This document shows positions 1 to 17,700 of a stretch of DNA of 35,808 nucleotides, in pieces (the first letter of the stretch is position 1; each line of letters opens with the position of its first letter). Source of the stretch: a virus. The DNA is taken from the IMG/VR virus record IMGVR_UViG_3300028860_000054, positions 1 through 35,808 of that record, one strand, 5' to 3'. Both the position numbers and the translations under genes were made by a program. Below the pieces are notes generated by a model. The model was not told the origin of the DNA, did not search any database, and was given only the letters and a program-made list of their open reading frames with translations.

Positions 1-36
1 GAAACGAATCACTCAAAGAGCAGAAGTAGGCCGCGC

Positions 37-279
37 ATGAGTCAGGCGATATTAAGAAGCGGATTCGATTGGTCGTGGTCGGGGTCGCGGTCGGGGTCGG
101 GGTCGCGGTCGGGGTCGTGGTCGGGGTCGGGGTCGCGGTCGCGGTCGGGGTCGTGGTCGGGGTCGGGGTCGCGGTCGGGGTCGCGGTCGCGGTCGTGGTC
201 GCGGTCGCGGTCGGGGTCGTGGTCGTGGTCGTGGTCGCGGTCGGGGTCGCGGTCGCGGTCTCGGTCGGGGTCTATCTAA
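37..279 (+). CDS. Possible Ser-(Gly/Arg/Trp) repeat protein read through the hexamer array
   Basis: An 80-codon frame opens with ATG at 37 and ends with TAA at 277-279. After a twelve-residue non-repetitive start, every second residue is Ser (TCG) and the alternating residue is Gly, Arg or Trp (GGG, CGG, TGG). No known family fits. The array is open in other frames too: one gives Val-(Val/Gly/Ala), and another gives an almost pure Gly-Arg dipeptide repeat but lacks a standard start. An open frame is therefore weak evidence of translation. No strong Shine-Dalgarno precedes the ATG. It may be a disordered phage protein or simply repeat DNA. Confidence 0.22.
   Translation: MSQAILRSGFDWSWSGSRSGSGSRSGSWSGSGSRSRSGSWSGSGSRSGSRSRSWSRSRSGSWSWSWSRSGSRSRSRSGSI
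70..273. repeat. 34-unit NGGTCG hexanucleotide tandem array
   Basis: Thirty-four consecutive six-base units of the form NGGTCG run from 70 to 273. Apart from two units near the 3' end with TCT in place of TCG, the only variable position is the first base, which is G, C or T and never A. Consecutive N=G units create GGGG runs separated by TC, so the + strand is locally G-rich and could form quadruplex-like structure. The array sits upstream of the Nudix gene. Its role is unknown; candidates are a slippage-prone coding repeat or a structural DNA element. Confidence 0.97.
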
Positions 280-280
280 T

Positions 281-302
281 GGGAGTTACATACTTAACTC
301 CC
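281..302. promoter_or_regulatory. 8-bp palindrome upstream of the Nudix gene
   Basis: The arms GGGAGTTA (281-288) and TAACTCCC (295-302) are perfectly complementary around a 6-nt loop. No T-run follows, so a rho-independent terminator is unlikely. The element ends just before the ribosome binding site AAGGAGGG of the Nudix gene. A similar GGGA...TCCC palindrome lies just after that gene at 780-801. An operator or mRNA hairpin is possible. Confidence 0.5.
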
Positions 303-318
303 TTGAAGGAGGGAAATG

Positions 319-777
319 ATGGTCAAGTACGTGGCAGGTCTTTTGTTTGATGAAGATAGGAACAGGGTTGCCCTGATCCTCAAGAATCACGGCCCCGCAG
401 CGGTGGTAGGCAAATGGAATGCCATCGGCGGCAAGCGAACGACGATGAGCGCAGGGCAACCGGAGAGCCCATCTGCAGCCATGTGGCGCGAGTTTCTGGA
501 AGAGGCTGGCGTGGATGTGCAAAGTTGGCAACCTTTTTTGATTCTCCGCGCCAAAGGCAGCAACCCGGAATGGCAAGTCCATTTCTTCCATGCTTTTAAC
601 ACCAAAAAACTCGCTCACGTGCGGACTATGGAGACTGAATCAGTAATGATCTGGCCTATCGACGAATTGCCAGTTGTTGTCTCAAATTTGGCGTGGATTA
701 TCCCAATGGCGCTCACTCACCAGAGCCAGCATGTCCACGTCTACGAAGTGATCGAAACGGACACTTTTGCAGCATGA
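319..777 (+). CDS. Nudix hydrolase
   Basis: A 152-residue protein of the Nudix superfamily, whose members hydrolyse nucleoside diphosphates linked to other groups. The Nudix box is visible: Gly37-Gly38 after the KWNAIGG strand, Glu49, then R57-E-F-L-E-E-A-G64, with the canonical seven residues between Glu49 and Arg57. Ten residues separate Gly38 from Glu49 instead of the usual five, a small insertion in the first half of the box. I chose ATG 319 over ATG 316 because AAGGAGGG at 306-313 is better spaced from it. Short palindromes flank the gene. Phage Nudix enzymes often clean nucleotide pools or act on capped RNA or NAD-type substrates; the substrate here cannot be read from the sequence. Confidence 0.88.
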   Translation: MVKYVAGLLFDEDRNRVALILKNHGPAAVVGKWNAIGGKRTTMSAGQPESPSAAMWREFLEEAGVDVQSWQPFLILRAKGSNPEWQVHFFHAFNTKKLAHVRTMETESVMIWPIDELPVVVSNLAWIIPMALTHQSQHVHVYEVIETDTFAA

Positions 778-779
778 AA

Positions 780-801
780 GGGACTCAAGTATATAAGTCC
801 C
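780..801. promoter_or_regulatory. 6-bp palindrome downstream of the Nudix gene
   Basis: GGGACT (780-785) and AGTCCC (796-801) are complementary around a ten-base A/T-rich loop that contains TATATA. The element starts three bases after the Nudix stop codon. Its layout mirrors the 281-302 palindrome upstream of the same gene. The rest of 802-879 shows no gene. Function unknown: a weak terminator, promoter or operator are all possible. Confidence 0.4.
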
Positions 802-879
802 AAATAATTACGCGCCGATCATCTGGAAAATGGTGAGGCCGAAGGCAACCGATACATTCAAAACTGACGAGGAGGGGTG

Positions 880-1191
880 ATGAAGCAGACAAAGAAATTC
901 CTTCGGTCTAAGCAGTTGCTTCGGGATATGCAGACCTTCCGTCGCGGTTTTTTGCAGGGATGGAATCAACATGATCTCCTCGGAAGCGGCGTGTGGGCGA
1001 CGAACGGGAGGTCAGCGGTGTTGCAGGCGCCGATCACGATTGAGAGTCTTGAGAAGATGGTGAAAGAGATGAATGCGGCGATGAACCAAGTTCGTGAGGT
1101 CTTCGAGTTCTCTATGAGTCTTCCGTTGGACTGGATGCTGCAACGTCCAATCGGTCCAAGATCTATCATTCAGGGGATGGACGGCGTGTAA
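880..1191 (+). CDS. Conserved-looking hypothetical protein
   Basis: A 103-residue protein that I do not recognise. The start is ATG 880, because GGAGGGG at 871-877 precedes it; an overlapping GTG at 877 is too close to that site. The N-terminus is basic (MKQTKKFLRSKQLLRD). The middle is amphipathic helical (ESLEKMVKEMNAAMNQVREVFEF), followed by a short hydrophobic stretch and PIGPRSI near the C-terminus. No signal peptide or metal-binding cysteines are visible. It lies immediately before the two tRNA genes and ends 17 nt upstream of the first, so they may share a transcript. Codon use and the strong ribosome binding site support a real gene. Confidence 0.7.
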   Translation: MKQTKKFLRSKQLLRDMQTFRRGFLQGWNQHDLLGSGVWATNGRSAVLQAPITIESLEKMVKEMNAAMNQVREVFEFSMSLPLDWMLQRPIGPRSIIQGMDGV

Positions 1192-1208
1192 CCGTGCTAT
1201 GCTGGATT

Positions 1209-1283
1209 CGCGGGGTGGAGAAGTGGTATCTCGGTGCGCTCATAACGCACAGGTCGCTGGTTCGAGTCCAGCCTCCGCAACCA
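1209..1283 (+). tRNA. tRNA-fMet (CAT), initiator type
   Basis: A complete cloverleaf of 75 nt including an encoded CCA. The anticodon CAT is at 1241-1243 in loop CTCATAA. The initiator hallmark is present: the first base pair is a C1-A72 mismatch, while positions 2-7 pair with 66-71. The D-stem has the A11-U24 pair typical of bacterial initiators. The anticodon stem next to the loop has three G-C pairs, written GCG/CGC rather than the usual GGG/CCC. The T-arm GCTGG/CCAGC with TTCGAGT is perfect. The next tRNA gene begins at the following base. Confidence 0.94.
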
Positions 1284-1360
1284 GGGCGCGTAGCTCAGTT
1301 GGAAGCAGCAATTCCCTCTTAAGGAAAAGGTCGAAGGTTCGATCCCTTCCGCGCCCACCA
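1284..1360 (+). tRNA. tRNA-Lys (CTT)
   Basis: The acceptor stem GGGCGCG/CGCGCCC is perfect and CCA is encoded at the 3' end. The anticodon CTT is at 1318-1320 in loop CTCTTAA, closed by TTCC/GGAA with an A-A mismatch at the base of the stem. The T-arm is GAAGG/CCTTC with loop TTCGATC. The D-arm is irregular: only GCT/AGC pairs well, and the stretch up to the anticodon loop is about two bases longer than usual. It abuts the initiator tRNA without a spacer, so the pair is probably processed from one transcript. Confidence 0.92.
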
Positions 1361-1380
1361 CGATTGCACGAGGAGTTACA

Positions 1381-1578
1381 ATGGGGAAGGCAGATCCGCT
1401 TGAGAAGGCGCAAGCACTGATTGAATGGCAGGGCGAACCTGTTATCTACCACGGCCAAAAGTGGTACTGGTTTCAGAGGTGGAGTCCTTCCCGCAGGCGG
1501 GCTGTAGAGGTGCTTGAGGACGCTGGCAGGCTGGTACGGTGGAGCGACAAGACGACGGGGTTGGTGAGGTTGGTTTGA
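1381..1578 (+). CDS. Small hypothetical protein
   Basis: A 65-residue protein beginning at ATG 1381 after GAGGAG about seven bases upstream. It is rich in Trp, Arg and aromatic residues (KWYWFQRWSPSRRRAVEVLEDAG), with a helical N-terminus. It suggests a compact fold like many small phage proteins, but I recognise no family. It lies between the tRNA pair and the terminase-like gene, ending 10 nt before the latter's start, so it is probably co-transcribed. A small terminase subunit is a positional possibility, but no DNA-binding motif supports that. Confidence 0.65.
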   Translation: MGKADPLEKAQALIEWQGEPVIYHGQKWYWFQRWSPSRRRAVEVLEDAGRLVRWSDKTTGLVRLV

Positions 1579-1588
1579 GGAGGGGTTT

Positions 1589-2380
1589 ATGGGATTGACG
1601 ATGGATATGCTGAAGGTGATGACCTCGGAAGGTAAAATCGTGTCAGTCGGCGAGGGTCATTGGGGAGCGATCTACGCGGACTACCTGAAACACGCTGGCA
1701 GGAAGAATATCGTCAGGAAATGCCGGCAGATGGGTATGACGACGTTTGCTTTGGCGCGTGGATTTATGGCGGCGTCCGAGGGGAAGACTTGCGTTGTAGT
1801 GGCCCAGCGACACAATGTGGCGGATTATATGTGGAACACGGTTCGAGGATTTATCCAAAACCTTCTCACACCACCTCCTATCAAATGGACATTTACAAAC
1901 CGTCACGCATTCGGACTGGAAGGTTGTATCCCTCATCAATATCAGATTTTTAATTCCGATAGATTTCACAGCGGACTTGGGATGAAAGTTGACTTCGTTC
2001 ACTTCCAAGAGTTCGCGTGGTGGTCAAGAGATGATCAGGAGACGGTGTGGAATAGCCTGATGCCCTGCTTGAGTCCCGATGCGGAAGTAATTATCGAGTC
2101 CAGTCCTCAATTCGGGGACAGCGGAAAGTTTGATGATGTTTGGGTGGGAGCCGAGCAGTACGGTTTTGTGCGACACTTCTTTCCGTGGTGGAAGAACCCG
2201 ATCTGCGTTGGCGCACCGATTGATCCGAATACGATTACTCTGAAGGAAGAGACGATGATGGTGATGAACGGACTGTCTCTGGAGCAGATGGGGTGGAGGC
2301 GAAAAGCGTTAGGGTATTACAAAGCCATGTTTGGAGGCGACAAGGAATTCAAAAGAGAGTACGGAGAGAATTTGATTTGA
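1589..2380 (+). CDS. Terminase large subunit-like packaging ATPase lacking the nuclease domain
   Basis: A 263-residue protein matching the ATPase half of phage large terminases, the motor that pumps DNA into the prohead. A deviant Walker A region K44-C-R-Q-M-G-M-T51-T52 follows the pattern RQxGxT common in terminases. A Walker B-like strand V134-D-F-V-H-F-Q-E141 has the catalytic Glu but Gln where Asp is usual. E170-S-S-P fits the coupling motif. The protein ends at FKREYGENLI, the junction where the RNase H-like nuclease domain normally starts, so it is about half the usual 450-600 residues. The next 700 bp hold no nuclease. The nuclease may be elsewhere, or the gene may be truncated. A GAGGAGGGG site precedes ATG 1589. 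Confidence 0.75.
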   Translation: MGLTMDMLKVMTSEGKIVSVGEGHWGAIYADYLKHAGRKNIVRKCRQMGMTTFALARGFMAASEGKTCVVVAQRHNVADYMWNTVRGFIQNLLTPPPIKWTFTNRHAFGLEGCIPHQYQIFNSDRFHSGLGMKVDFVHFQEFAWWSRDDQETVWNSLMPCLSPDAEVIIESSPQFGDSGKFDDVWVGAEQYGFVRHFFPWWKNPICVGAPIDPNTITLKEETMMVMNGLSLEQMGWRRKALGYYKAMFGGDKEFKREYGENLI

Positions 2381-2577
2381 AGCGTCTTCGACCGGGGATT
2401 CTGAGGTGGTGGCTCTGGCATCAGGAAGGCCGCAGGCTGTTTCGTTGGACGCGGGAGTATCGGGAGTTCATTGAGGGAAAGTGGAAAGTAAGTCCAAAAT
2501 TCGGAGTAAGGAGAGTGACATGGGTAAACGAGGATTTGGAAAGACGAAGAAGAAGAAGCTGCCTCCGTTCGAGTTGA
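2377..2577 (+). CDS. Possible small basic Trp/Arg-rich protein
   Basis: A frame opening with TTG at 2377, overlapping the terminase stop codon, gives a basic Trp/Arg-rich sequence (RLRPGILRWWLWHQEG, then RWTREYREFIEGKWK). It runs through the dispersed motif at 2488 and ends inside the metallopeptidase gene. The first forty residues look protein-like and would otherwise leave 140 nt without a gene. GGAG about ten bases upstream could serve the TTG. The end of the frame overlaps the next gene by 58 nt and is probably fortuitous. I do not recognise a family. Confidence 0.28.
   Translation: MKRLRPGILRWWLWHQEGRRLFRWTREYREFIEGKWKVSPKFGVRRVTWVNEDLERRRRRSCLRSS
2488..2515 (+). promoter_or_regulatory. 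Dispersed leader motif, copy 1 (before the metallopeptidase gene)
   Basis: GTCCAAAATTCGGAGTAAG (2492-2510) runs directly into the GGAG Shine-Dalgarno of the gene starting at 2520. The core TCC..AAATT..GGA is a near-perfect inverted repeat. The 23 bases from 2488 to 2510 are identical to 27634-27656, about 25 kb away. Other copies are at 7818, 23890 and 31354. The right arm contains GGAG, so an mRNA hairpin could partly hide a ribosome binding site; a protein-binding site is equally possible. Confidence 0.7.
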
Positions 2578-3098
2578 TCGATCACGAGGCGAAGCCGCAA
2601 CTTGAGCCGTACAAACTGATGGCCGAGATCAGGAAGGCCCACCACCCGGACATCAAGGACGCGAAGATCTGTCTGGCGTACCAGAAGGGCTTGAAGGCTG
2701 ACGTAGACGGCCATGTGACGCTGGGGAAGTGCATCAAAGCGTCGGACCTTCAGCGGGAATTGGTGGCATGGGATTTTGTGATTCTGCTGAACTTCGAGAT
2801 GTGGACTTCCACCGGATTCACCAAAGAGAAGAAGATGGCCTTGCTGGACCACGAGCTTTGCCACGCTGACGTTGCGCTCGACAAGGATGGTGAGCCGAAG
2901 GTGGACGCGGCCGGCAGGAAGACGTACCGGATTCGCAAACACGACTATCAGGAGTTTCATGCGATCATCGAGCGGCACGGTCTGTGGGACAGAGACCTGA
3001 AGCGGTTGGGCGACACGATCATCAAGCAGGCCCAGGCGACGTTGACGTTCCCTCCTCCGGTTGAGGCTGCGGCCAGCGGACAGGTGACGGTGCAATGA
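2520..3098 (+). CDS. Putative phage metallopeptidase (HELCH)
   Basis: A 192-residue protein starting at ATG 2520, just after a GGAG site; an upstream in-frame GTG at 2481 would read through the regulatory motif and is rejected. The basic N-terminus (KRGFGKTKKKK) is followed by a domain with the zinc motif H111-E-L-C-H115, with His and Asp residues about 35 residues downstream (RKHDYQEFHAIIERHGLW) that could complete the site. This layout matches the putative phage metallopeptidase family found beside packaging and head genes. Proteolysis has not been shown for most members. The gene overlaps the next by ATGA (3095-3098), implying translational coupling. Confidence 0.8.
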   Translation: MGKRGFGKTKKKKLPPFELIDHEAKPQLEPYKLMAEIRKAHHPDIKDAKICLAYQKGLKADVDGHVTLGKCIKASDLQRELVAWDFVILLNFEMWTSTGFTKEKKMALLDHELCHADVALDKDGEPKVDAAGRKTYRIRKHDYQEFHAIIERHGLWDRDLKRLGDTIIKQAQATLTFPPPVEAAASGQVTVQ

Positions 3099-3307
3099 AG
3101 TTTCCGGGGAATTGCCTTATCGTATCGGTTATCTCAGCGGCGTTCCCCGGAAATTCTTTGAAGTGGAAGCGTAACCGTATGGGTCGTTTACACTTTTATT
3201 GGCAAGATAGAAAAGGAAGATCGTGGGAATTTTACAAGCGTGGATCGTCTGGGAAGTCATACTTCCAGAACTCGTTTTATGTAGGGGAAGTGAAAAGGAT
3301 AGATTAG
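3095..3307 (+). CDS. Small hypothetical protein, translationally coupled
   Basis: A 70-residue frame whose ATG overlaps the preceding stop as ATGA. The C-terminal 42 residues, from Met29 at 3179, look the most protein-like (GRLHFYWQDRKGRSWEFYKR) and suggest a small beta-rich fold. The first part encodes two FPGN segments on the arms of an 11-bp inverted repeat, so the true start could be ATG 3179, and 3095-3178 could be structured leader RNA. No family is recognised. It sits between the metallopeptidase and the large tail gene. Confidence 0.5.
   Translation: MKFPGNCLIVSVISAAFPGNSLKWKRNRMGRLHFYWQDRKGRSWEFYKRGSSGKSYFQNSFYVGEVKRID
3101..3153. repeat. 11-bp inverted repeat within a small gene
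   Basis: TTTCCGGGGAA (3101-3111) and TTCCCCGGAAA (3143-3153) are perfectly complementary, separated by 31 nt. Read in the 3095 frame, both arms encode Phe-Pro-Gly-Asn using different codons. The stem begins four bases after the ATGA overlap, where a strong mRNA hairpin could affect translation of the downstream gene. Confidence 0.75.
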
Positions 3308-3314
3308 AAATCGG

Positions 3315-3352
3315 ATGAAAGTCTACCAGAACAGGGGTAGACTCATTTCATG
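3315..3352 (+). promoter_or_regulatory. Hairpin spanning the start of the tail hub gene
   Basis: AGTCTACC (3320-3327) pairs perfectly with GGTAGACT (3336-3343). With a small bulge the stem extends, so that bases of ATGAAA (3315-3320) pair with TTTCAT, which contains the first two bases of the start codon at 3350. The only Shine-Dalgarno-like run, AGGGG (3333-3337), is in the loop and stem about 12 nt from the ATG. No T-run follows. A translational control hairpin is the simplest reading. Confidence 0.55.
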
Positions 3353-6300
3353 TCGGATTCTCCCTACAGTTCGCAGAATTTCTTGTTCTCCAGCAAAGGA
3401 GTAATAGCCCACGCTGTCGAGGACTCCGCCCCTCCAGGGACATATTTGTCACTTCTCAACGTCGAAGAAATTGAGGAGAATGGGTTGGCGACCCGTCTCG
3501 GGACAACCATCCTCAGCGCGGCTGAAGGGATCGTCAAGCCCCTTGGAGGGTCGGCCGGGGTAGTTCACAGCCTGAGCAGATTGCCGGGTCTAACGGGGAG
3601 CAGTTGGCGTTACGCCGGCAAGGGGAATGGCCTGTATCGCATCTCAGGGGACGCTCCGGGCGAATACTCAAAGCTCTCCGATTCCATGAGCGGCCAGCCG
3701 TGGACAGCAGCCCAATTTCAGCCGGTTGTATCGTCCGCACCACTCTTATTTATCGCCGACATGAACGGCGTCCAGAAGGATAACGGGACCAACTCCGCTC
3801 CGCAGAATGCAGGAATCCTCCAACCGCATTACCCGGTAGCCGCGCAAGCGCAGGCGCCGGACGTAATCATTCTTGCCCCGTTTTATAACCCGATGCTCTC
3901 CATCTACACCTCGTCGGCGGTGGCTACTGGCCTTCAGAGCGTGTCTGTAACAGATCCGTCAGTGATTGGACTATTCCAGTCTCTTGTGATTGATACGGGT
4001 TCTCAGCAGGAGACGGTTCTTGTAATTGCAACGTCGGATACGGGGTTTACAGCGAACTTCACGAAGACGCACTCTTCGGGGGCTTTGATACAAGAGTACG
4101 GAGATTCGACTCCAGTATCAGCGTCTTCGACGGCGACGATCAGCAACTCGATTTCCACCTCCATCTCGACTTGGCCGAAAACGCTGGAGCAGGCAGATTA
4201 CATCGGTCTGTGGATATACGTGGGCGATCCCAACGCCATCGACTCGATAACCCTGAAGTTCTACACGTCAAACGGAGCCTACTTCTACCGGACCATCGGC
4301 CAGGGTCCGTTGCAGGCTACCCTGAATGCCTCCACGGACAGCACTACGGCCGCAGCAGACGCGGTATTGTCGTCAAATTTGGGCCTATACACGATGGGAG
4401 CAGGAGGGGTAACGGGTCTAAATACAAGCCCGGGGTGGACTCCGATCCTTTTGCAGCTATCGGACTTCTCCGCATCGGGAGGAGCGGATTTCAACGACTC
4501 TACAAAGAACTGGCAGAATGTTACTAGCTATGAGGTAGAAACCACAACAGGGGAGGGAATCTCCACCACATCATTCCCTATTCTGATCCAGGTAGCTTCT
4601 CTTATTCTCTTTGGTGGAGCAGGTCCAGACAGCCTCGCTGGAGTGAGCTACGACTACATGGTGACGCTGTTCAACATCAATGATTACACTGAGTCAAATC
4701 CATCAATGACTATGTCGGATGTTGATCCTCCGACGCTGACTAACCGAGTATTGCCGCGTCGTCAACCGATCCTGTTAAGTTGGGAGAACAGTAATAGCGA
4801 TACCCAGGCAACGCACTGGAGGGTGTATCGCCGGGGAGGGACACTGGCGAATAATTATCTTAGAATCGACCAGATACCGATCACGACCGCTATGGGAGGG
4901 ATAGAGAATTACAGAGACCTCTGGAGTGATTTGGAGATTCAGCAGGCGACCCCAATATCTTTCACGAACGATGTGCCGGTGACCTCCACACTTCCAGTCC
5001 CGGTGAACACGACCTTGACGGCTGACATCGGAACTCCGGGGAGCGCGGTAAACTCAGTCCAAGTGATTATTCCGGCATCGATGCAGAGTATCTCCGTGAA
5101 CCAGCAGGTGAATATAGGGAACGTCTTAGACGCTACCTTTGAGACAGTGATAGTCACTTCTATCTCGGGTCCGAGGTTCAGAGCCTACGTGCAGAACTAC
5201 CATGCGGCCGGGGAGTCAGTGTCGGCTACGGCGGCCTACGCCCAGCCGGTGAACATTATTGCGGTGGCTTTTGACCAAGGACTGTACGCGGGTGACCCGA
5301 ACAATCCGTCGTACCTCTACACTTCGGAGAAGTCGAATATCCAAGCGGTGAGCAGTGCGGCGTACACGCAGGTGAACGTCCCATCAGATCCAATCACTGC
5401 GATTGTGCAGAGCAGCGGAAACGTCTTTGTGAGCACTTTGCAGCGGTGGTGGACAGGAAGCCCAGGGAGCCAGCCAGGGCAGCCCGTTACTACATATCCA
5501 ACGAAAGCCGATCACGGCGTAGTGGGAAAAAACGCATGGGTTTTAAGGGATGGTGTAGTCTACTATCTCGGAACGGACGGACTGCGGATATTCACGGGAG
5601 GATCTGGAGACTATATCTCAGAGATCATCGAGGCGGTGTGGCAGAACACCAGCCCGACTCCTCTTCCGATTGCGGACCCAGCCTACTTCTCGACGGTCCA
5701 ATGTTCCACGTGGAACAGGTGGGTGTTCTTCAGCTACCAGGCTCTTGACGGGAATCGGTATCGAATCATTCTTGATTGCGTGAACAAACGGTATCGGAAC
5801 GACTCTCTGGATGCTCAGAGTATGTTCTTGGAGTCCGACACCAACCAGCTTGTCTGGGGGGACTCGCAGGGTCTTGTTCACCTCGACAGGCAGTTGACGA
5901 GCACGGATGAGGCCAACGAGCAGGGAGTTGTAGTTCCGTTGCCGATCGCGTTCACGGTGCAGACTCCGTACAGCGATTCTGGTTCGCCTCAGATTCAGAA
6001 AAACTATGCAGAGTTTACGCTCGACGCGAACACAAACGGGAACCCGGTAACAGTCCAACTTGTGTTCAACGATGGAGCTTTCACGGAGACTCTGGGGACC
6101 ATCACGACCACTTCGAGGCAGAGAGTAAATCTTGCGCTCAACAACGGGGAAGGGTTCCAAGCCTTCAAGGTAAGCATGATCTTGACTGGCAGCGGAGCAA
6201 GCAGGGTGTTTTTGTATCAGGCAAAGATTCGACACTTGCCACTGGGCGAAACACGCACCAGCTTCGATTCATACGATCTGCGTCTTGGGACTGAGGAAAG

Positions 6301-6574
6301 TAAGGTTCTAAAACAGATTTATTGCGAGACGACAGCCACAGCGGATATAACTTGCAACGTCTACTACGATGGGACTCTGGGTTACACGTTCACCATTCCA
6401 ACACTTGGAGGGGTGAGAAACGCCTTGCGGGTTAGGATGCCGGCAATACAATTCAGAATCGTGCGCTTTGTGATGACATCGACTTCCGACTTCATTCTGT
6501 GGGAGACGAGTAAGTATGAGTACAAGCCCTTGTGTGCCGGTAAAAGTTACAGCACGGCATTGTTAATGCCGTAA
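3350..6574 (+). CDS. Large tail hub / stopper-like structural protein
   Basis: A 1,074-residue protein, Ser/Thr/Gly-rich and beta-rich with no membrane segments, typical of virion structural proteins. The N-terminus (YLSLLNVEEIEENGLATRLGT) resembles podovirus tail accessory or hub proteins. The middle contains fibronectin-like strands (YDYMVTLFNINDYTESNPS, then THWRVYRRGG). It continues into propeller-like repeats (VVYYLGTDGLRIFTGG) and a beta-sandwich C-terminus. I infer a gp10-like tail hub or stabilisation protein rather than a fibre, based on these motifs and the adjacent appendage gene. ATG 3350 lacks a well-spaced ribosome binding site and lies in a hairpin. Family assignment is tentative; a structural role is likely. 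Confidence 0.65.
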   Translation: MSDSPYSSQNFLFSSKGVIAHAVEDSAPPGTYLSLLNVEEIEENGLATRLGTTILSAAEGIVKPLGGSAGVVHSLSRLPGLTGSSWRYAGKGNGLYRISGDAPGEYSKLSDSMSGQPWTAAQFQPVVSSAPLLFIADMNGVQKDNGTNSAPQNAGILQPHYPVAAQAQAPDVIILAPFYNPMLSIYTSSAVATGLQSVSVTDPSVIGLFQSLVIDTGSQQETVLVIATSDTGFTANFTKTHSSGALIQEYGDSTPVSASSTATISNSISTSISTWPKTLEQADYIGLWIYVGDPNAIDSITLKFYTSNGAYFYRTIGQGPLQATLNASTDSTTAAADAVLSSNLGLYTMGAGGVTGLNTSPGWTPILLQLSDFSASGGADFNDSTKNWQNVTSYEVETTTGEGISTTSFPILIQVASLILFGGAGPDSLAGVSYDYMVTLFNINDYTESNPSMTMSDVDPPTLTNRVLPRRQPILLSWENSNSDTQATHWRVYRRGGTLANNYLRIDQIPITTAMGGIENYRDLWSDLEIQQATPISFTNDVPVTSTLPVPVNTTLTADIGTPGSAVNSVQVIIPASMQSISVNQQVNIGNVLDATFETVIVTSISGPRFRAYVQNYHAAGESVSATAAYAQPVNIIAVAFDQGLYAGDPNNPSYLYTSEKSNIQAVSSAAYTQVNVPSDPITAIVQSSGNVFVSTLQRWWTGSPGSQPGQPVTTYPTKADHGVVGKNAWVLRDGVVYYLGTDGLRIFTGGSGDYISEIIEAVWQNTSPTPLPIADPAYFSTVQCSTWNRWVFFSYQALDGNRYRIILDCVNKRYRNDSLDAQSMFLESDTNQLVWGDSQGLVHLDRQLTSTDEANEQGVVVPLPIAFTVQTPYSDSGSPQIQKNYAEFTLDANTNGNPVTVQLVFNDGAFTETLGTITTTSRQRVNLALNNGEGFQAFKVSMILTGSGASRVFLYQAKIRHLPLGETRTSFDSYDLRLGTEESKVLKQIYCETTATADITCNVYYDGTLGYTFTIPTLGGVRNALRVRMPAIQFRIVRFVMTSTSDFILWETSKYEYKPLCAGKSYSTALLMP

Positions 6575-6592
6575 GATGGTGGAGGGGAACAA

Positions 6593-7525
6593 ATGGCACA
6601 ACAAAATCAACTCGCAAAGCCCGTGCTTCCAGAACTCTCTTCGCAGCACCAGCAGTTCTTGAGCCAGATGGTCGATACGATCAACAGCCTCCAGGGTTAC
6701 AACGGGCCTACCAAACTCAATAACCACCTTGACCTCAACGGGTATCAGGTGAAGAACGTCGGCGCTCCCACCTCTTCTACGGACGCCATTACGCACGGTG
6801 TAGCCGAGGCATCCTATTCGGCAGACGCACTGGCTCCGAAGTTAGAGTCTACAGGTAAGAACTCTTTGAAGACGATGCGGCAGTTGAACTCTCCGGTGCA
6901 GCGTGAGCAGACTAGTTCATTCTTGAATGACCTGATGAGTTCTGTCCCCAACGCCAACGCGATAGTTCCCCTCCTGACAAACATAGGCTCTCCTGCTACT
7001 GGAGTGCAGTGCGTCATTCCTGCCGGACCATTCACATTTGTTGATGGAAGCACGGTGATGCTTCAGGGAAGGACGGACTTATTTTCTCTTCCTACCTCGT
7101 ATGCGATATCTTCAATATCGTGCGTGGGAAACGTGGTGACGGTCGCATCGACGGCTCCGGTGACTGAGGGGCAGGCGATTACGATTGCCGGAGTGTCCCC
7201 TTCGAGCTTCAACGGGTCAGTTACGGTGTCGAGTGCGGGTAGTGGGAGCTTCACCTATCAGGCCGACCTGGGGACGTTATCTGGTTCTGGTGGGCGGGTT
7301 GAGGAGAACGGCGTCCACTATTACGCTGTACGGAAGCGGAGTGGAAGTGTTATTCTTCTCCCACAGCAGTCTGGCGACACGATGGCGAACCGCCTACACG
7401 CGAACCTCGATGGATCACAAATTGTCGCAGTGGTGGTGGTGAATGCTTCAGGGTTCCAGGTATCGCAGAGTGGTGGCGGCGGGTCAGCTATAGTCGGCAG
7501 CCCAACGGCAGGATCGTTCTTCTGA
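6593..7525 (+). CDS. Tail fibre / virion appendage protein
   Basis: A 310-residue protein starting at ATG 6593 after GGAGGGG. The N-terminal third is helical and contains LNGYQVKNVGAPTSSTDAIT, a pattern seen where phage fibres attach (HLDLNG..VKNVGxPxxxxDA). The centre has two beta-rich repeats of Ser/Thr/Val/Gly. The C-terminus is Gly/Ser-rich (SQSGGGGSAIVGSP). It directly follows the tail hub gene. The likely role is a tail appendage or short fibre; receptor specificity cannot be deduced. It is too short for a long fibre, so it may be an adaptor. Confidence 0.72.
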   Translation: MAQQNQLAKPVLPELSSQHQQFLSQMVDTINSLQGYNGPTKLNNHLDLNGYQVKNVGAPTSSTDAITHGVAEASYSADALAPKLESTGKNSLKTMRQLNSPVQREQTSSFLNDLMSSVPNANAIVPLLTNIGSPATGVQCVIPAGPFTFVDGSTVMLQGRTDLFSLPTSYAISSISCVGNVVTVASTAPVTEGQAITIAGVSPSSFNGSVTVSSAGSGSFTYQADLGTLSGSGGRVEENGVHYYAVRKRSGSVILLPQQSGDTMANRLHANLDGSQIVAVVVVNASGFQVSQSGGGGSAIVGSPTAGSFF

Positions 7526-9053: not shown

Positions 9054-9833
9054 GTGAGCAGCAAGCCCGAATCGAGCGCAGCAGCGCAAGCAAGCCAAGC
9101 CAATCTTGCAAACCAGATGGCAGCCACCGGAGCTACGGAGACGGCTGAGGGTACAAAGTTGTTCAATATGGCCCTTCCCGGCCTTGAGCAGTCTGAGTCC
9201 TACTATGGAAAACTAGCCTCTGGTGACCCGAACGCGCTGGCGAGGGCGAATGCCCCGGCGATTCAAGCGATCACGCAGTCCACGGACAAAGCCAAGCAAA
9301 ACATTATGCAGAGCAGTCCGAGAGGAGGAGAACGAAACCTTGCTCTTGAAGAGGCTGATTTGTCGAAGGGCGCTCAGGTGGGGCAGCTTGAGACGGGATC
9401 GTACACGTCGTCCTTTGGTTCGCTGGCCGGCCTTGGAGGGCAGAACGTGGGCCAAGGAACGGCGGCTCAATCGGCGGGTACTCAAGGGATGAACGCGGCT
9501 TCCAACCAGTACCAAAACATTCAGAATACAAATGCGGCGGCGAAGTCGCAGCAGATGGGGTTGTGGTCTGACGTTGCAGGAACGGGCATGGAAGTGGCCT
9601 CGATGTGCTGGATTGCTGCTTCGCTTTGGAGCGGATGGAACGACCGCAGGACGCGGCTGGTTCAATTCTGGTTGCGGAACGTCTACTCGAAGACGATATT
9701 TGGGAATCTGTTCTGCCGCTTGTATTCCCGGTACGGTGAGCGGGTGGCGGAACAGGTTCGGAAGAGGTCGGTAGCTCGGTCGGTGGCCGAGCCTCTGTTT
9801 GGCTGGTTCCTCTTGAAAGCGCAGGAGGTTTAG
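9054..9833 (+). CDS. Internal virion / ejection-type protein with C-terminal CWIA domain
   Basis: A 259-residue protein with a GTG start at 9054, chosen because AGGAG at 9041-9045 is eight bases away; ATG 9047 is out of frame. Residues 1-180 are rich in Ala, Gln, Ser, Gly and Asn and look helical and flexible, like internal virion proteins ejected with DNA. From C185-W-I-A188 the character changes to an aromatic and basic domain (LVQFWLRNVYSKTIFGNLFCR) containing YGERVAEQV. Similar CWIA/YGER tails occur at the ends of assorted phage virion proteins; their function is not known to me. The next gene starts immediately after its stop (TAGATG), suggesting coupling. Confidence 0.68.
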   Translation: MSSKPESSAAAQASQANLANQMAATGATETAEGTKLFNMALPGLEQSESYYGKLASGDPNALARANAPAIQAITQSTDKAKQNIMQSSPRGGERNLALEEADLSKGAQVGQLETGSYTSSFGSLAGLGGQNVGQGTAAQSAGTQGMNAASNQYQNIQNTNAAAKSQQMGLWSDVAGTGMEVASMCWIAASLWSGWNDRRTRLVQFWLRNVYSKTIFGNLFCRLYSRYGERVAEQVRKRSVARSVAEPLFGWFLLKAQEV

Positions 9834-11756
9834 ATGGCTGGCTTTGAGACTCCTCAAATATCGGTTACCCCCTACGAATCGAAGGTTCCCCTCGTCCAAA
9901 TGCCCGAGCGCGACTTGCAGACCGCGCCAACCCCCGGCGCGATCTACAGCAAGGGTGGAGGAATAGCCACGCTCGCGGACGGGATGATGAAGGGGATGCT
10001 CCGCGGCCTCCAGATGAAGGAGGAGAAGAAGTATAAGACGGCTGAGGCGACGATGGCTGCTCAGGATGCCGTGATCTCCGCCGCGAAGAAGAACTACGAA
10101 AATATGCTGACGACGAAGGGTGCGTTTGAGGCTGACGGGAAGACACCGAAGGCAGAGACGCAGGCAGCTTATACGGCGTGGCAACAGTCTGTGAACACAG
10201 CGGCAGAACAGCGGCAAGCGTTTGCGATCCCTGAGAAGACGGCAAAGCAACCGAAGGGTCAGAAGAAGGACAAGAAGGCACCGGACGGAGCGCCGGCGGC
10301 GGGAGGATTCGGAGCCGGTCTAAAGCAGTTCTTTGAGAGGAACCCGCACATCCTTCCCGAACTGGCGATCATCGGAATGAAGTCGCAGGTTACTCCCTAC
10401 GGCCAGATGGCGCCAGAGCAGCAAGAGGCGAAGATAAAACTAGACTCCGCACAGCGCGGAGAGGAAATCCAGAAGGTGATTGATACTGCAACTCTGACCC
10501 GTGATAAATATGCCGGTAGAGGAGAAGCAGAGCTTGAGAAGATGCCTCCAAGTGAGGGAGGAAAGAAGGCGGGATTCAAGAACGCTCTTGAAGAGTACAA
10601 CAACGCCCTCGCGGTGATGAATCCCCCCAAGCCAGTACCGGCGTCTAAGGCGGGGACCATAGGAGCCTATTACGACAAGAAAGCTCAGGAACTCGGAAAA
10701 GATGTGAGCGATCTGACGAGCGAAGAGCAACTGGACGCAAAGAAAGAATTTCAAGAGGCCGGAAGGGCGGAATCGCGGTCTAATCTTTATTACGATGCCG
10801 CAGCAAGGGAGTGGGGAACTACTAGAGATAAACTGACGCGGCCACAACTCGAATACATTGACGCAAGCCGGGCGCGTTCTCAAGCTCAAGCGAAGGGGCA
10901 GACAACCTACAGTTACAGAACGACAGACGCGAACGGGAATAGCTCTACGGTTACGAAGAAGGTATCCGAACCGATTGCTACGCCCCAAGGCGTCAAGGCT
11001 CTCCCTAAAGAGACATTCAACGACGGTCAAGAGGATGCGGGTTCTCAGCAAGGCACATCATCGTCTTCAAAGGCAGGAGGAACTAGATTCAATCAAGTGC
11101 CGAGATCGCCGGGCGCCGGTCGCGGGAGGATGGATGCTGCTCCAACGCAAGGTGGTGGTGTAACTCCAATGCGGACGAAATCTGATCTGACGTTAGAGAA
11201 GGCTGTCAGCGACGAATACGGAAAGGCTGATACCCATTTTAACGAAGAGCTTGACAAGATCGATCAGGCGGCTCATCAAGCCAACAATCCTATTACTCCG
11301 GCAGAGGCGAAGACAAGGACAGACCGTGTAACGCAGGCGTACAACGACGAGAATGCTCGTATTACTCGCGCCAGGGTATCTCAGATTGAAGCCGCAGGAG
11401 GAGACCCTTGGAAGCGGAGAGCTAAGGATGATAAAGGCAACGAGATTGGTACGATGGACGACGTGAGTTGGAAGAACACGAGGACCGGGTACGACGTACC
11501 AGCACCTTCAGGTGGACCCCAAGCGGCTCCAACGGCGACCCAGGGAGCGGCGGCGGGCCAAAAAAAAGAGCCTAATCCCGCAAAGAAAACCGAAGCAGGG
11601 AGCGAGATTAAAAGTTATGGTGATCCAGGTCCGGGGAAGAAAGCATACATCATTAGATGCGCGGACGGATCAGAAGCGAGATTGTACTTGGATGAAAAAG
11701 GGTTGGCTATAATCAAAAGCCATCCAACAACCGCGGGTGTCGTTGAAGATAACTAA
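9834..11756 (+). CDS. Internal virion / ejection-type protein, coiled-coil and disordered
   Basis: A 640-residue protein rich in Lys, Glu, Ala and Gln. The N-terminal 120 residues include GGGIATLADGMMKGMLRGLQMKEEKKY, resembling the start of internal core proteins. Residues about 60-150 and 200-350 are charged helices. The stretch after about 370 is Gly/Ser/Pro/Thr-rich and probably disordered. The last 40 residues form a more ordered block (KKAYIIRCADGSEARLYLDE). No enzyme motif is seen. It lies between the CWIA protein and the giant protein, so I infer one of a set of three internal ejection proteins, as in T7-like and N4-like podoviruses. Confidence 0.65.
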   Translation: MAGFETPQISVTPYESKVPLVQMPERDLQTAPTPGAIYSKGGGIATLADGMMKGMLRGLQMKEEKKYKTAEATMAAQDAVISAAKKNYENMLTTKGAFEADGKTPKAETQAAYTAWQQSVNTAAEQRQAFAIPEKTAKQPKGQKKDKKAPDGAPAAGGFGAGLKQFFERNPHILPELAIIGMKSQVTPYGQMAPEQQEAKIKLDSAQRGEEIQKVIDTATLTRDKYAGRGEAELEKMPPSEGGKKAGFKNALEEYNNALAVMNPPKPVPASKAGTIGAYYDKKAQELGKDVSDLTSEEQLDAKKEFQEAGRAESRSNLYYDAAAREWGTTRDKLTRPQLEYIDASRARSQAQAKGQTTYSYRTTDANGNSSTVTKKVSEPIATPQGVKALPKETFNDGQEDAGSQQGTSSSSKAGGTRFNQVPRSPGAGRGRMDAAPTQGGGVTPMRTKSDLTLEKAVSDEYGKADTHFNEELDKIDQAAHQANNPITPAEAKTRTDRVTQAYNDENARITRARVSQIEAAGGDPWKRRAKDDKGNEIGTMDDVSWKNTRTGYDVPAPSGGPQAAPTATQGAAAGQKKEPNPAKKTEAGSEIKSYGDPGPGKKAYIIRCADGSEARLYLDEKGLAIIKSHPTTAGVVEDN

Positions 11757-11767
11757 CCGGAGGAGAG

Positions 11768-14700
11768 ATGGCACAGGCGGATGAGCTTTACAAAGAAGTC
11801 GTTAAGCCTAATGCGGAAGCTCGTCCGAAAACAAGCCAAGCAGATGCGTTAGCTATGTCTGTTTTAGGCCACGAGACCCCAAAGCAAGAGGGTAAAAATG
11901 CAAAGGTGCCCACTCAGAAGGCAAGCCAAGCAGATGCGTTAGCTATGTCGATTTTGGGACATGAAACTCCTTTGCAGACGAGCACATCTCCATCTACAGC
12001 GACCCAACCGGACTACCGCAAGCAGATCTACGACTCGACGATCGGCGAGGGTTACAGCGAAGAGCAAGCGCAGAAGCGCGTGCATGAGTTCGACTATGCT
12101 ACCAGTCAAGGATTGTCCCCTGAGAACTCGTTCAATCTGGCGTCTTCCGTGGCGTTCGATAGAGCCGAGAAGAAGTTCCTGACTGAACAAGAACGGGATA
12201 CTGTCTATCAGCAGGCAAAGAAGCACGCCGAGGAGATTTTGGAGGCTAACCGGAACGCTCCGATCTCGGATAACTCCACATTAAACACGGAAGCATCAAA
12301 GATTATTGCAGCGGGTGGAACGGACGCTTGGGCGAGAGGGTACACGAAGAATTACGCACAGTCTAAGTGGAAGGGGTACAGCGAAACAGACGCCAGGGCG
12401 CACGCTGGGGGAGAGATAGACGAGAATGTTTACGACTTTCTCCGTGATACCGGGTTAAGCTCTGACCGCTCGTATCTTCTTTCGGACGAGGGCGAGAGGT
12501 ACATCAGGTTCTCTGTCGCCAAGACAGCGGATTCTCTGGAAAAAAGCGGACACCCCTACGTTGGGGCGTTCCTTCAAGGACTGACGGAGATGGGGATTGG
12601 CCTCACCACTCCGAGCATGGTGGCGATAGGTCTGGCAACGAAGGGCGCTGGAGCATTCTCCAAAGTAGAGCCGTTTGCGGAAGTAGCCACGGCAGAGGGA
12701 ACGGAAGACGCAGCCAAGGCAACGTCCATAGCCGGGCGCTGGCGCCGTGCCTACAAAGCGGCGAAGGCGACTACAGCAGCCGCCGCAAGGAAGGCAGCCG
12801 TATCAACTGCTAAGAGTGCCGGTGAGACGTTTGCGAAGGTAGCTCCAGACAGCGCGGCAGGAGTTGCGGAGGCTACAGGGAAGGCTTCGGAGAGTGTTGC
12901 GAAGGCGACTGAGGCTATTCGCGGTGCAAAGCTCCCGGTGAGCGCAGTCCATGTGGCAAGGACGATCAACGAGGCCACTCATGCGTATTTCTCTGCTCAG
13001 ATGACGATGGGCGCGATGCAAGGCGCAGAGCGGTTTGGCGAGGGGACGAAAGCAGAACTTGAGAGAGTAGGAGCGATAGGCAAAGGAGCTGAGGGAGCGA
13101 CTCTTTCAGAGAAGGCGTTACGCGCTTATGGCGGGGACTATTCCAAGCCTGTCGCTGCGCTTTTGGTCAACACGGTCATCGGCGGACTCATGGCCTACGG
13201 CGGCGCGAAGTCACTGATCGAAGCGGAAGGCTTCAAAATCAAAGCCGATGCGATGACAGAGAAGTTGTACGGTACTCCGGGGGAAGTCGAGGGCGAAGGA
13301 CCGAAAGAAAGACCGGCAAGCAAGTTTTCCGACCTGAATGATTACCAGCAGGCCGTTGTGCTGACGAAACTTATTGAGGAAGATCCGGCGTACAGCCATG
13401 CTTGGGTTGAGACGAAGAAAGAACATGATCGCCGGATGAAGAAGTTGAACTACCGTTACAACCAGAATCTTCAGAAAGCGTGGAACCCGGACGCAGTTCA
13501 AAGAGCAGTTCGGGTGATTGACTACCACCAAGCATTCGCAGAGTGGGAGGATGAAGCCCGCGCTCACTACCTGAAGCAGATCACGAAACTTATTAACCTC
13601 CACAAACAGGACAGGGCAGATGAAGCAGAGCTTGCGGAGTATGAGCAAGAGCGCCGGGCCGCAGGAAGAGAAGGCCGCCCGGTACGGAAGACGGAAGCTG
13701 CCAGGAAAAGAGAAGAGGCCCGCAAGGTCACGCTGACAAACGCGGCACAGATTGCCGAAGCGCGGCAGGGCGCAGGGACCGCCCGCGAGGAAGCGGACAG
13801 GGAAACGGCCGCTCAAGAGCAGGAAGCGGCAGAGACACTGGCTCAGATCAAATCCCTTCGGGTAAATGCCGACTACGCTCTTGAGGAGCATGGCTCGACG
13901 CCGGAGCGAGAAGCGGAACGCACGCTACTCCGAAATTTGGAGCGGCAACTGGTAGACGGCGAGATTACCGGGGAGCAGGCGCGGAAGGGAGCCGGTCTGC
14001 CGGAAGAGAAGTCGGAAGAGGAAGAGCGGAGGTCCACCACATATCAGGAGATCGAGGCCGCCAGAGCAGGGGCATTGTATGGGCTTCTTTATGGACGGAC
14101 GATAGCGCAGTTTGAGGACGATTTCCTTTCCGAACTGGAGAGTGCCGGCTGGAATCCCGAAGACATCGAAGCAGCTATCGACACCATTGGTCCCACTCTT
14201 CGGATGGAGGCCGAGAACAACCTGCACTACGTAGGAAAATCTGGAGACTACATTGTTTCCAAGAAGGGCGTCACCTGGAGACTCGACAAATACGGGATGC
14301 TTCAGCCGGACGGTTTTGCGGTTGCGCCGATTCCGTTGATGAAGAATGGCCGATACACGGCACAGGCGATCGACCTTGCAATGTCGGGGAAGGTTGGTTT
14401 TGGTCGTAGCCCTCTAGAGGAACAGAGAGTAGAGGTGGCGAAGGAACACACGGCCGCCCAGATGCTCGACAATCTTTCACAGGCCGAGAAAGATGAACTT
14501 GAAAGGGCCGTCAGACTGTCGCAGCAAAACGAAGGGTTGCTACTGGAAGCAGGCGAACTGCCGGCGGAGAAACCAGTTTCGAACAGGAAGAAGGGATTCG
14601 CTCCTCCAGTTGAGCGTCCGACTCCAGAGATGGAGGAGGATCGCACCGTAGACGAAGGTTATGATCCACTGATCGAAGCCATTGGCTCCCAGATAGAGAA

Positions 14701-17700
14701 CCCTGAATCTCACGCGAAGGGGCCGGGAATTATTGCGCGGATAGCGAAGAATAGCGGCCTGACTCCAGCGCAGGTCGTTGGATTGTTCCGTGAATCGGAG
14801 GCCAAGCCGGACACTCTGAAAGGGAAGATCGAGTGGCTGCGGGTTGGAGACACTATCTCCGACAAGATGGGACTCCCTTGGGTAGTGGAGGGTGACGCGA
14901 ACGGGAAGTTGTATCTCCGCAAAGGTGAGGGCGGAGCCAGAATCCCATTTGACAAGGACAAGCCGAGCGATACCGTGCGAAGAATAGTCGGCAACGGTGA
15001 AGTGCAATCTACGGCCCGTACACAGTACACACCAGAGGACGCACGTCGCATTGTGTTTGAATCCTCGATCGTCATTGCTCAGAATGAGGCGATAGAGAGA
15101 GTCAAGGAATTGGCGGAGAACCCACCTCCACCGCCACGGACGCAGGAGCAGGCTGAAGAGCAGGTCAAGCAGGCAGAGGCCCGTGAGGCACAAGTCAACG
15201 ACGCAGCCGTGGAAGCTATTGCGGCGGCGGTTGACCCTACCCCAAAGGCGACCGACGAAGAGATCGACAAGGCTGTTGCGAAGGCCGAGGAGTTGCGAAA
15301 GGTAGCCGAGGCTGCGGCGAAGCAGACGGCGGAAGCGCAGGGTCGTGCCGCAGGTCCGGGAGACTATCCTCAGAAAGCTCCGATCACCTCGAAGCGAGTC
15401 CCACGGATGGCGTGGGCAGTCGGGCATGAAGGGTATATCCAGACGAACGCCAGCAAGATCCCCATGCACCGCGAACTCGTCAAGTTGAGCCAACTCACCC
15501 CGTCTTTTAGGTGGAACGGGAATATGTTGGAGCGGGTTCCTGAGTACCCGGAACAGATGCAGGACGTTCCACCGGACGAAGCGACACGCCAGCAAGTTTT
15601 GGCAGATGCTCAGCCTGTTCGGTACGACGTTGACCATTATCTCGATCCTGGTCATGGCCCAGAGCGGGGACCGGCCATTGTCGATGGTGGCGGCGACGTG
15701 GCGGGAGGGAATCGCCGTCTGTTGAGGATGATGAAGTATCTGGAGTTGATACAAGACGACAAGGTTGCTCTTGCTCAGTTCCGTGCGAAGATGGCCGATT
15801 ACGCCCAAAAGAACGGGATGATTTACCCGGAGGGAGATGAAATCTACATCCCAGTCAGGATGATGGATGAACCTATTGGCACTATAGCCAAGGCGACTAA
15901 GTTAGGAAACCTGTTCAACAAGAAAGCATCGCACGGCATTGACGAGAACGCGAAGTCGATCACTTACGGACGGATGCTCTACGAGGCCCAAAGGGCTGAA
16001 GAGGCAGTAGGGCGCAATGGAGTTTTGGATCGTATCGCCGATGAGTTCAACAGCGCCGACACGCCGCGAGACGCAATGGCAAACAGACCTGAATTCTTTG
16101 CCAACATAGTGCGTAAAGAACTTGGGATCGGCGGTGAGGATCAAGCAGACTGGTTTAACAAGAACGCACAGGGAGAGTATGAATTCTTGAGTACAAACGG
16201 CAAGGAGAAGTTAGAGAAAGCCCTGCTTGCTACGGTACTGAAGAATCCTTCCACGCTCGATACGTTGGGAACCTCGACGGCCTACGATTCTCTGTTGAAG
16301 TCGATCGGCCCAATGACCCGGCTTCGCGCCGTGCCGGACAAGGACATCACCGGAATCATCGAACAGGCGATTCAGGCGACGGCGGTCACGGAGAGAATGA
16401 AGGCCGCGGGAGACTCGCCGAGGGCGCGGTGGAACAAGGCGTTTGCTGAGCATGATTTCTTTTCTGAAGACCCACAACTGCCGGAGCCGGACAGGATGGT
16501 GGAAGCTGTCTGGAGGTCGCTGCATGATCGAAAGACGACCCGCTTCAAAAACGCTCTTAATGATTATCTGGTTGGAGAGGGAATCCAGAAGGGTTTCTTT
16601 GATCCGGCAGAGCATGGCCTGAATACGCCTGCTGATTTGTTCAACGCAGCCTTCGAGGACGAACTGAAGGACGTGAAAGATTCGCGTGGCGTAAATAGTG
16701 AAGAGGCTCGTGGCAAGAAGGGCCATGATGCTATGCAGGAATATCTGAAGTCTCTTCCGTGGGAGTTAACTCAAGACCAGTTTGACGCGGCGATGCGGAA
16801 TCAGCCGGAGGCGGGCGACCCGATTGCGAAGCCGATTGAAACGAAAGTTCGAGAAGGAAAGATCGGTGATATGCTCGGAGCCGGGGAAACGCGACTCACG
16901 GCAACAGGGCGCGAGACGACTCCGTTCCCGAAGATCGATACGACCACCAACGGAAAAGCTACCAATACGGTGAAGCGCGTCGATCAGTGGCTCATGGATA
17001 ATGCCATCGCTGAGGCGAAGGCGAGAGGGGACCATTTCGCGCAGCGGCAGTTTGAGGCAGGCCGTGATAAGCCACAACAGGCAGACAAAGATTCTGCCGA
17101 GATTTACCTTTTCGACAAGGAAATCATCCAGCCGATCCCGCGGCCGTTCACGAAGCCTCTTGTTGCAGAGAAGCCCGGCGCACTCACTCCTCCACCGGAG
17201 CCTCCAAGTGCAGCCCCAGCGGTCGAGGTTGGGCAGCGTGTCACGTTCACCCCGAATAACTTCAATCACAACGATGTGGTTGGGGTGGTGCGCGATGTCA
17301 TCACCAACACTTCTGGAGCTAAGGGCTATCAGATTATCGATGATGCTGGTGTCGAGCACAGAGTATGGGAGAGGGATGGAACTATCGGCTCAGAGACGAA
17401 GGCGGTCGATCAGAAAGCCATCAACTCTCTGAATGATGAAGAGCGCAAACTGCGGAAGAGACAGGCAACTCTGGAAGCGGAAGTCAAGAAGCCTTCCGGC
17501 ATGGTTCCACCGGCCATCTCATCGGAGTTGAACTCTAAGCGCGGTGTTGAGTTGAACGATATTCGGAAGCGTCTCGACGCTATCGTAGATGAACGGCGCA
17601 GGTTGATGCAGGGTGGAGATGGAGATTCTAAACTCGCCGCGGCTAAAGCCGAGAAGGGCTACGTCACCCCCGACGAGTTGCGCCGCTATCTGGAATTCGA

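Follow-up and report, generated by a model that had tools for sequence, protein, structure and literature searches.

Comparison of viral loci shows that the hexanucleotide array at the left end of this virus record encodes the body of a small phage protein, in which a conserved short leader is followed by (Arg/Gly/Trp-Ser)n, and places this repeat gene as the downstream half of a near-constant two-gene module with an Sm-like gene upstream. The window analysed is the whole virus record of 35,808 bases. The features of the module in the window are:

3-29, plus strand: last eight codons (NESLKEQK) and TAG stop of the upstream gene of predicted Sm fold, truncated by the contig end
37-279, plus strand: repeat protein ORF, 80 residues, complete, identified from its composition and the ORF list, ending with ATC TAA one codon past the array
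37-69, plus strand: leader MSQAILRSGFD, 11 residues, from comparison of 33 distinct leaders of its class including that of the window
70-273, plus strand: array of 34 NGGTCG units, (Trp/Gly/Arg-Ser)34, from the unit count, Tandem Repeats Finder and a pattern scan

Reading frame of the array and its leader

The array is real, as the initial annotation had stated: 34 consecutive hexamers occupy 70-273, the first base of the NGGTCG unit being G in 13, C in 13, T in 8 and A in none, with positions 2-5 fixed in all units and two other substitutions, T for G at position 6 of units 32 and 34 near the array end (TCG to TCT). No other array in the window was reported by Tandem Repeats Finder, which gives this one as 71-272 (period 6, 33.7 copies, score 257), and a four-unit pattern scan of the window gave 28 forward matches and none with the reversed control. 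That N is never A is true for the window (0 of 34) but not in general, since some phages put A for C at this position (AGG, likewise Arg); as judged from codon usage, its absence in the window reflects arginine being spelt CGG.

The frame arithmetic of the annotation was also right, in that GGT-CGN gives Gly-Arg without a start codon, and the ORF at 37 sees Gly, Arg or Trp at N. A constant dipeptide with a silent N had been proposed on this basis and has to be given up, because in the frame of ORF 37 N switches between Arg, Gly and Trp, and N stays variable. Selection on a dipeptide frame survives as a kind of explanation with another frame, NGG-TCG of ORF 37 being favoured and not Gly-Arg or Arg-Pro. 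Among the matches listed, 84 of 124 arrays (from at least 119 IMG/VR stretches matching an NGGTCG-type pattern) are open from an ATG onwards in the NGG/TCG frame, as against 24 in GGT/CGN and 16 in GTC/GNG, and serine codons other than TCG added at least 120 further stretches with 145 arrays, 103 of which have an ATG in the NGG-Ser frame. The Gly-Arg and Arg-Pro frames were rejected as candidates, usually lacking a start codon and having no conserved flank. At the protein level, the viral loci (the window, the loci of both pattern scans and those of added searches, including the leader-only search) contain 323 x-Ser arrays among the matches listed; 283 are R/G/W-mixed and 234 of these have an ATG. 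Both viral pattern scans fix GGTC, so that codon statistics of this larger set are biased. The product of ORF 37-279 contains 14 Arg, 14 Gly, 8 Trp and 36 Ser, has a computed pI of 12 and a charge of about +12.5, is devoid of acidic residues in its repeat part and had no match in Pfam, PHROGs or PADLOC.

The leader, as far as codon comparison can tell, is under purifying selection. In the 33 distinct leaders of the window's class (class A) Ala4 and Gly9 are invariant and Arg7 is found in 32, with all synonymous codons in use, and single-base codon differences are synonymous to nonsynonymous in a ratio of 1925:569, as compared to 727:2164 by chance, the pairs being non-independent. Moreover, a search with the leader only (ATG-Asn-x-Ala-Ile-Leu-Arg-x-Gly-Phe/Tyr-Asp/Glu, loosely back-translated, with no repeat in the pattern) gave ten matches on nine contigs, three of them already known, and all ten continue into (x-Ser)n with serine as TCG, TCA or AGC, nearly constant inside each array. 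Serine itself is kept, because TCN and AGC are not interconvertible by one synonymous step.

Pairing with an upstream gene of predicted Sm fold

The junction and leader of the window match those of locus L421 nearly base for base. Positions 18-36 are identical to the L421 sequence before the ATG, where the complete 113-residue partner ends in ...LPKEQK and its stop codon, and the 7-nt gap between stop and ATG recurs in L421, L427 and L437. Among the matches listed, 177 of 234 arrays are preceded by an ORF of at least 60 residues whose end lies from -60 to +12 relative to the ATG, with a 4-nt stop/start overlap (ATGA) in 62 of these 177 pairs; the 57 remaining ATG-bearing arrays are without such an ORF in the tested zone, for which contig ends and multi-copy clusters are part of the reason. 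Distinct complete non-repeat upstream ORFs of 75-135 residues numbered 104 among these matches, 96 of them forming one blastp-connected family and eight falling outside it.

The pairing is also seen in the reverse direction. Profiles of two partner subtypes, whose seeds were taken from loci with arrays, gave 159 loci (the best 80 of 286 and the best 80 of 229), and in 150 of them an x-Ser ORF starts between -30 and +200 of the partner stop. When the 48 loci overlapping earlier ones are separated out, a repeat ORF is present in 102 of the 111 others and in 91 of the 96 where at least 150 nt remain. As control, the identical criterion picked out 27 of 647 other ORFs of the partner loci, some of these 27 being possibly extra copies of the repeat gene. 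Two of the five exceptions among the 96 have a shortened or start-less repeat copy. Of the loci failing the pairing test, L433 has the repeat without an ATG, GTG or TTG start in the tested zone, L415 has the leader and a few units, four (L456, L504, L509 and L534) have less than 90 nt left, and L425, L434 and L532 keep the Sm-like gene with no recognisable repeat ORF next to it. In addition, tblastn with two partner-subtype queries against 50,697 deposited phage records found one record each, both with a repeat ORF: in the circular MW202573.1, UOF78858.1, beginning MNAAIIRAGLDASWSWSW, overlaps the end of the gene before it, UOF78857.1, by 4 nt, and in MW202825.1 both reading frames are present and neither gene is annotated. 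A plasmid search with one query gave no match. The NUDIX neighbour (316-777) was considered as partner and rejected, as no array was seen in the DNA examined around its relatives L379-L382.

What kind of protein does the upstream gene encode? Structure prediction suggests an Sm/LSm fold for both subtypes. The AlphaFold2 models, with a mean pLDDT of 91.7 for subtype A (96 sequences) and 89.3 for subtype B (17 sequences), both have an N-terminal helix and a small bent beta-barrel, and the best 50 entries found by VIA-align 2 were in either case all Sm/LSm domains or complexes (Z 9.8-8.6 for subtype A, 10.5-9.4 for subtype B). The best Foldseek E-values were marginal, 2.7e-3 for subtype A, where a single entry of the top 50 was unrelated, and 8.5e-4 for subtype B. 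Pfam LSM matched one of 96 partner members (E 0.021), NCBIfam MM0924 weakly matched 16 of 96 (best E 8.5e-4), a profile and sequence search of the PDB with the partner found no Sm chain, and no model of Pfam, PHROG, NCBIfam or PADLOC fits the partner well; because of this weak sequence support the partner is filed as Sm-fold and not as a member of Pfam LSM. Subtype A conserves TGxLVxV...LExA and, near the C-terminus, [IV]GRG, which resembles the Sm2 consensus and may correspond to this motif; subtype B conserves YTGKLVGVN and not the RG.

Leader class tracks Sm subtype in the sequences compared (n=122, of which 51 leaders are unclassified): AILRxG-like leaders were found 32 times with subtype A and never with B, and KQKY-like leaders 37 times with B and twice with A. 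This agreement could be due to shared descent instead of docking.

Array variation, turnover and genomic setting

Codon use and diversity were taken from 75 repeat-blind arrays, which are those new positives (of 102) with a longest run of at least eight x-Ser units and which thus come from the partner-profile searches keeping the best 80 of each set of relatives; their statistics agree with those of the biased larger set. In these arrays 88% of x codons are NGG, glycine is GGG in 611 of 641 cases, and arginine is CGG in 288 and AGG in 235 of 538, with 31 arrays using AGG only, 35 CGG only and 6 both. AGG arrays are lower in GC content (0.453 versus 0.540; in the larger biased set 0.427 versus 0.545). 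Elsewhere in uncultivated phages serine of the repeat protein is TCG, TCT, TCA or AGC and arginine CGG or AGG, mostly with one choice per array. R, G and W average 0.29, 0.34 and 0.27 per array in the 75 arrays, 67 of which have at least 10% of each; the three residues are near equal, whereas random N predicts twice as much Arg. Within arrays the first codon base has a heterozygosity of 0.64, as against 0.16 and 0.09 for the remaining two x bases and 0.02, 0.02 and 0.07 for those of the serine codon, so that variation in relatives is not random over all positions. The constancy of the third base suggests that the arrays are young and homogenised.

Slippage-type turnover, which the initial annotation had offered as its other option, is supported, as multi-unit blocks are duplicated above shuffles (z 13-16 for repeated 3- to 6-unit words, as against -1.1 for adjacent equal units) and repeat number differs between related phages with near-identical flanks. 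In L376 and L378, whose flanks are 100% and 99.5% identical, the arrays begin and end alike but number 24 and 31 units, and arrays also differ beside near-identical upstream DNA in L118/L516, L023/L391 and L349/L300; all four pairs are differently named contigs, and L349/L300 lie in multi-copy clusters. Most pairs with the same array are possibly one contig taken twice, the upstream identity of L311/L312 is only 96.5%, and L459/L112 and L480/L482/L483 were set aside as the compared ORFs may differ in gene copy or start. Assembly errors may be present inside arrays, including that of the window. The mixture of R, G and W would be maintained by copying of mixed blocks and, as we infer, by selection. 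Furthermore, a single Sm-like gene can have many repeat ORFs beside it, 15 in L250, 8 in L274, 7 each in L345 and L332, and 6 in L366. The tandem repeat-ORF families of these five loci (in L250 at about 9300-12200 of the contig) carry their own conserved leaders.

As far as gene neighbours indicate, the module sits in the replication/recombination region of the phages, on counts of one to three members per family without a background. Upstream of the partner (110 of 122 collected genes scanned) several DNA polymerases, clamp loader, helicase, primosomal protein and RecE/Cas4-type exonucleases were found, and downstream of the array (87 of 123 collected genes scanned) RecT, Sak4, Bet, UvsX, exonucleases and methyltransferases. 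A 191-residue ORF in which a short leader precedes a low-complexity repeat, related to that of the window but of another, Ser-Gly-Asp-Gly type, was noticed in L319 (near 4.2 kb; minus-strand position 10650).

The position of the module in the window is less certain than its nature. The 6,576 bases of window 802-7377 agree with L367 to 99.97%, and this identity ends sharply at window 802 (L367 4214), inside a gene of L367 that was named RNA-ligase-like from its sequence; leftward of the junction L367 continues with this gene and the window has array and NUDIX gene instead. The 48.8 kb record of L367 gave neither an array nor a partner match. The sharp end is either a recent replacement or an assembly chimera, and correspondingly the module is either non-essential in the L367 lineage or the first 801 bases of the window were wrongly joined. 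That a real module was brought into the window by chimeric assembly at a short hairpin or repeat is quite possible, if short of an even chance, and is compatible with the explanation preferred below. Besides the different continuation of an almost identical contig, it would account for the absence of the exact right junction (window 802) from other viral contigs searched, and assemblies do break at arrays, 21 of the 159 partner loci ending less than 150 nt past the Sm-like gene. On the other hand, a near-identical record may have escaped the junction search, and array, leader and Sm-like tail match L421 independently. The mosaic borders between array and NUDIX gene and between NUDIX gene and the right part coincide with two hairpins, at 281-302 (GGGAGTTA..TAACTCCC) and 780-801 (GGGACT..AGTCCC). 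The hairpins are short, perfect and related, and flank the NUDIX gene; a purine-rich ribosome-binding-like site follows the first, and L379 holds related copies of them. Elsewhere the window contains adjacent tRNA genes for Met (cat) and Lys (ctt) at 1209-1360, beyond which an Rfam scan of positions 1-3000 found nothing, and one ORF of 3914 residues (11768-23512) that takes up a third of the record; megablast of window 1-25000 against deposited phages gave no match.

Among at least 119 cellular-genome loci, the matches listed hold 95 x-Ser arrays, 16 of them R/G/W-mixed and three of these with an ATG. A contig of a Planctomycetaceae MAG (L145) has a phage-type repeat gene, MICGKRQRSRSW, and is possibly a binned phage contig or a hint to the host. 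The Sm-like gene was not found in the L145 genome, and the partner profile gave four weak matches in 294 genomes of its phylum (best E 2.9e-6), with no convincing R/G/W-Ser ORF in the stretch examined of these four, and none in 398 genomes of the phylum of L128; the profile used in this host search did find two virus records carrying the partner gene. The cellular genomes L206, L242, L130 and L188 (Anaeromyxobacter/Myxococcales and others) have long arrays of mixed Arg/Gly-Ser type that lack both Trp and a leader with an ATG.

Possible mode of action and relation to known systems

How could the two proteins act together? Since the repeat protein has a pI of about 12 and a charge of about +12.5 and its partner a predicted Sm fold, a ring combined with a multivalent polymer suggests itself. 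The Sm-like protein, if the models are right, would form a ring and bind single strands of RNA or DNA in phage replication or recombination. The repeat protein would be a disordered, strongly basic polymer whose leader, the likely docking part, attaches to the Sm-like partner. Arg and Trp could serve as stickers, which bind nucleic acid and each other, and Ser and Gly as spacers, and many Sm-like rings might thereby be held in a multivalent or condensed assembly. By analogy, the repeat protein would do what RG/RS-rich tails do in Sm and SR proteins, except that it has a gene of its own. Gain or loss of units would change valency in frame, and a change of the first base within the NGG codon box would switch between Arg, Gly and Trp in one step. 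Taken as a whole, the explanation we prefer is a nucleic-acid-binding protein of Sm fold whose multivalent partner is basic, disordered and fast-changing and comes from a gene of its own; we give it not quite an even chance. A more specific version is possible but on the doubtful side: a phage Sm ring that receives Arg/Trp/Gly/Ser tails in trans from 1-15 fast-rearranging genes and builds an RNP or DNA-protein condensate at the replication site, the tails being written in a three-word hexanucleotide code of NGG plus one fixed serine codon, so that single in-frame events alter valency and the Arg/Trp/Gly pattern.

The module might also act without condensation, the repeat protein coating phage DNA or RNA as a protamine-like or annealing accessory and the Sm-like protein being its chaperone. 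The high pI, the lack of acidic residues in the repeat and the ssDNA-annealing and recombination genes nearby would fit, but Trp at near 27% per array exceeds what simple charge neutralisation needs and Lys is rare at the variable position (19 of 1848), which makes this reading rather unlikely. Short basic Arg/Trp-rich peptides can be membrane-active, and the tight overlapping gene pair resembles toxin/partner operons, so that a host-inhibiting peptide held or neutralised by the Sm-like protein has to be considered. We regard this as improbable, given that Ser is every second residue and Gly a third of the remainder, that up to 15 repeat genes accompany a single Sm-like gene, that PADLOC matched neither protein (0 families, 5 proteins) and that most of the neighbours with a name belong to replication and recombination.

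Two further readings concern the DNA and not the proteins. The diversity of N is almost nine times that of the synonymous third base of serine (0.64 versus 0.07), as would be expected if a mutation mechanism, DGR-like or another hot spot, diversified it instead of selection and block duplication. Yet block duplication alone is able to copy mixtures, the window has no A at N, most arrays lack either A or C, and this absence tracks arginine codon choice and GC content and not a base-specific mutator; judged by the bases at N, a diversity-generating retroelement target was rejected, and mutational diversification of N is held to be slightly more improbable still. Least probable by far is a non-coding slippage or structural element (G-rich or hairpin) or a neutral microsatellite. 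It is true that the array is G-rich, that its RNA folds slightly better than shuffles in the window (z -2.47) and that cellular arrays of similar pattern, among the matches listed, are mostly single-unit microsatellites (79 of 95 not R/G/W-mixed). However, mean folding z-scores swing from -3.5 to +4.8 across serine-codon classes, an inconsistency for which a shared RNA fold was rejected, and the peptide pattern outlives the swap from TCN to AGC, so that the purely structural element of the initial annotation is disfavoured. A neutral microsatellite was rejected because of the frame preference and because changes are not spread over all positions, and the ATG, the conserved leader, the constant frame, the switch of codon family and the near-constant upstream gene all speak for coding.

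Compared with Sm, LSm and Hfq rings, the partner is alike in predicted fold, with archaeal SmAPs and spliceosomal or LSm subunits as best structural matches, but it is without significant sequence similarity, is phage-borne and has its presumed disordered tail on separate genes. Phage Sm-like proteins as such are already known, such as ECX21941/PDB 3BY7 'of putative cyanophage origin', and BFVD entries named 'Sm-like domain containing protein' and 'DUF6948' match the partner structurally at 7-21% identity; a Pfam scan of 96 partner members did not name DUF6948. Like them, the partner is by its predicted fold an Sm-type protein of phages from uncultivated environments. SR proteins, SmB/SmD tails and sticker-spacer condensate proteins have Arg and aromatic residues spaced by Ser or Gly, and the repeat protein resembles them in this respect. 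It differs from all of these by its strict two-residue period, by Trp as the aromatic residue and by being a separate gene with a short leader only and one hexanucleotide unit. An SR protein proper, with RRM and RS domain in one chain, was rejected for ORF 37-279, which consists of leader and repeat only. We know of no description of a phage Sm-like protein with an (R/G/W-S)n repeat partner, and a search of the open-access PMC literature, by titles and abstract openings, gave none of such a pair.

What appears new is that such a protein is almost always paired with hypervariable R/G/W-Ser proteins from separate genes, often present in several copies, and the gene pair appears to be widespread in phages yet undescribed. 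A repeat that looks like noise is half of a widespread phage gene pair, in which the predicted Sm fold is joined by a minimal Arg/Trp/Gly/Ser polymer that is varied by nature, small enough for direct testing and presumably disordered. As a natural experiment with many variants of one simple polymer and known, shared partners, the pair bears on the co-evolution of Sm proteins and sticker-type tails, and on condensates that phages may build.
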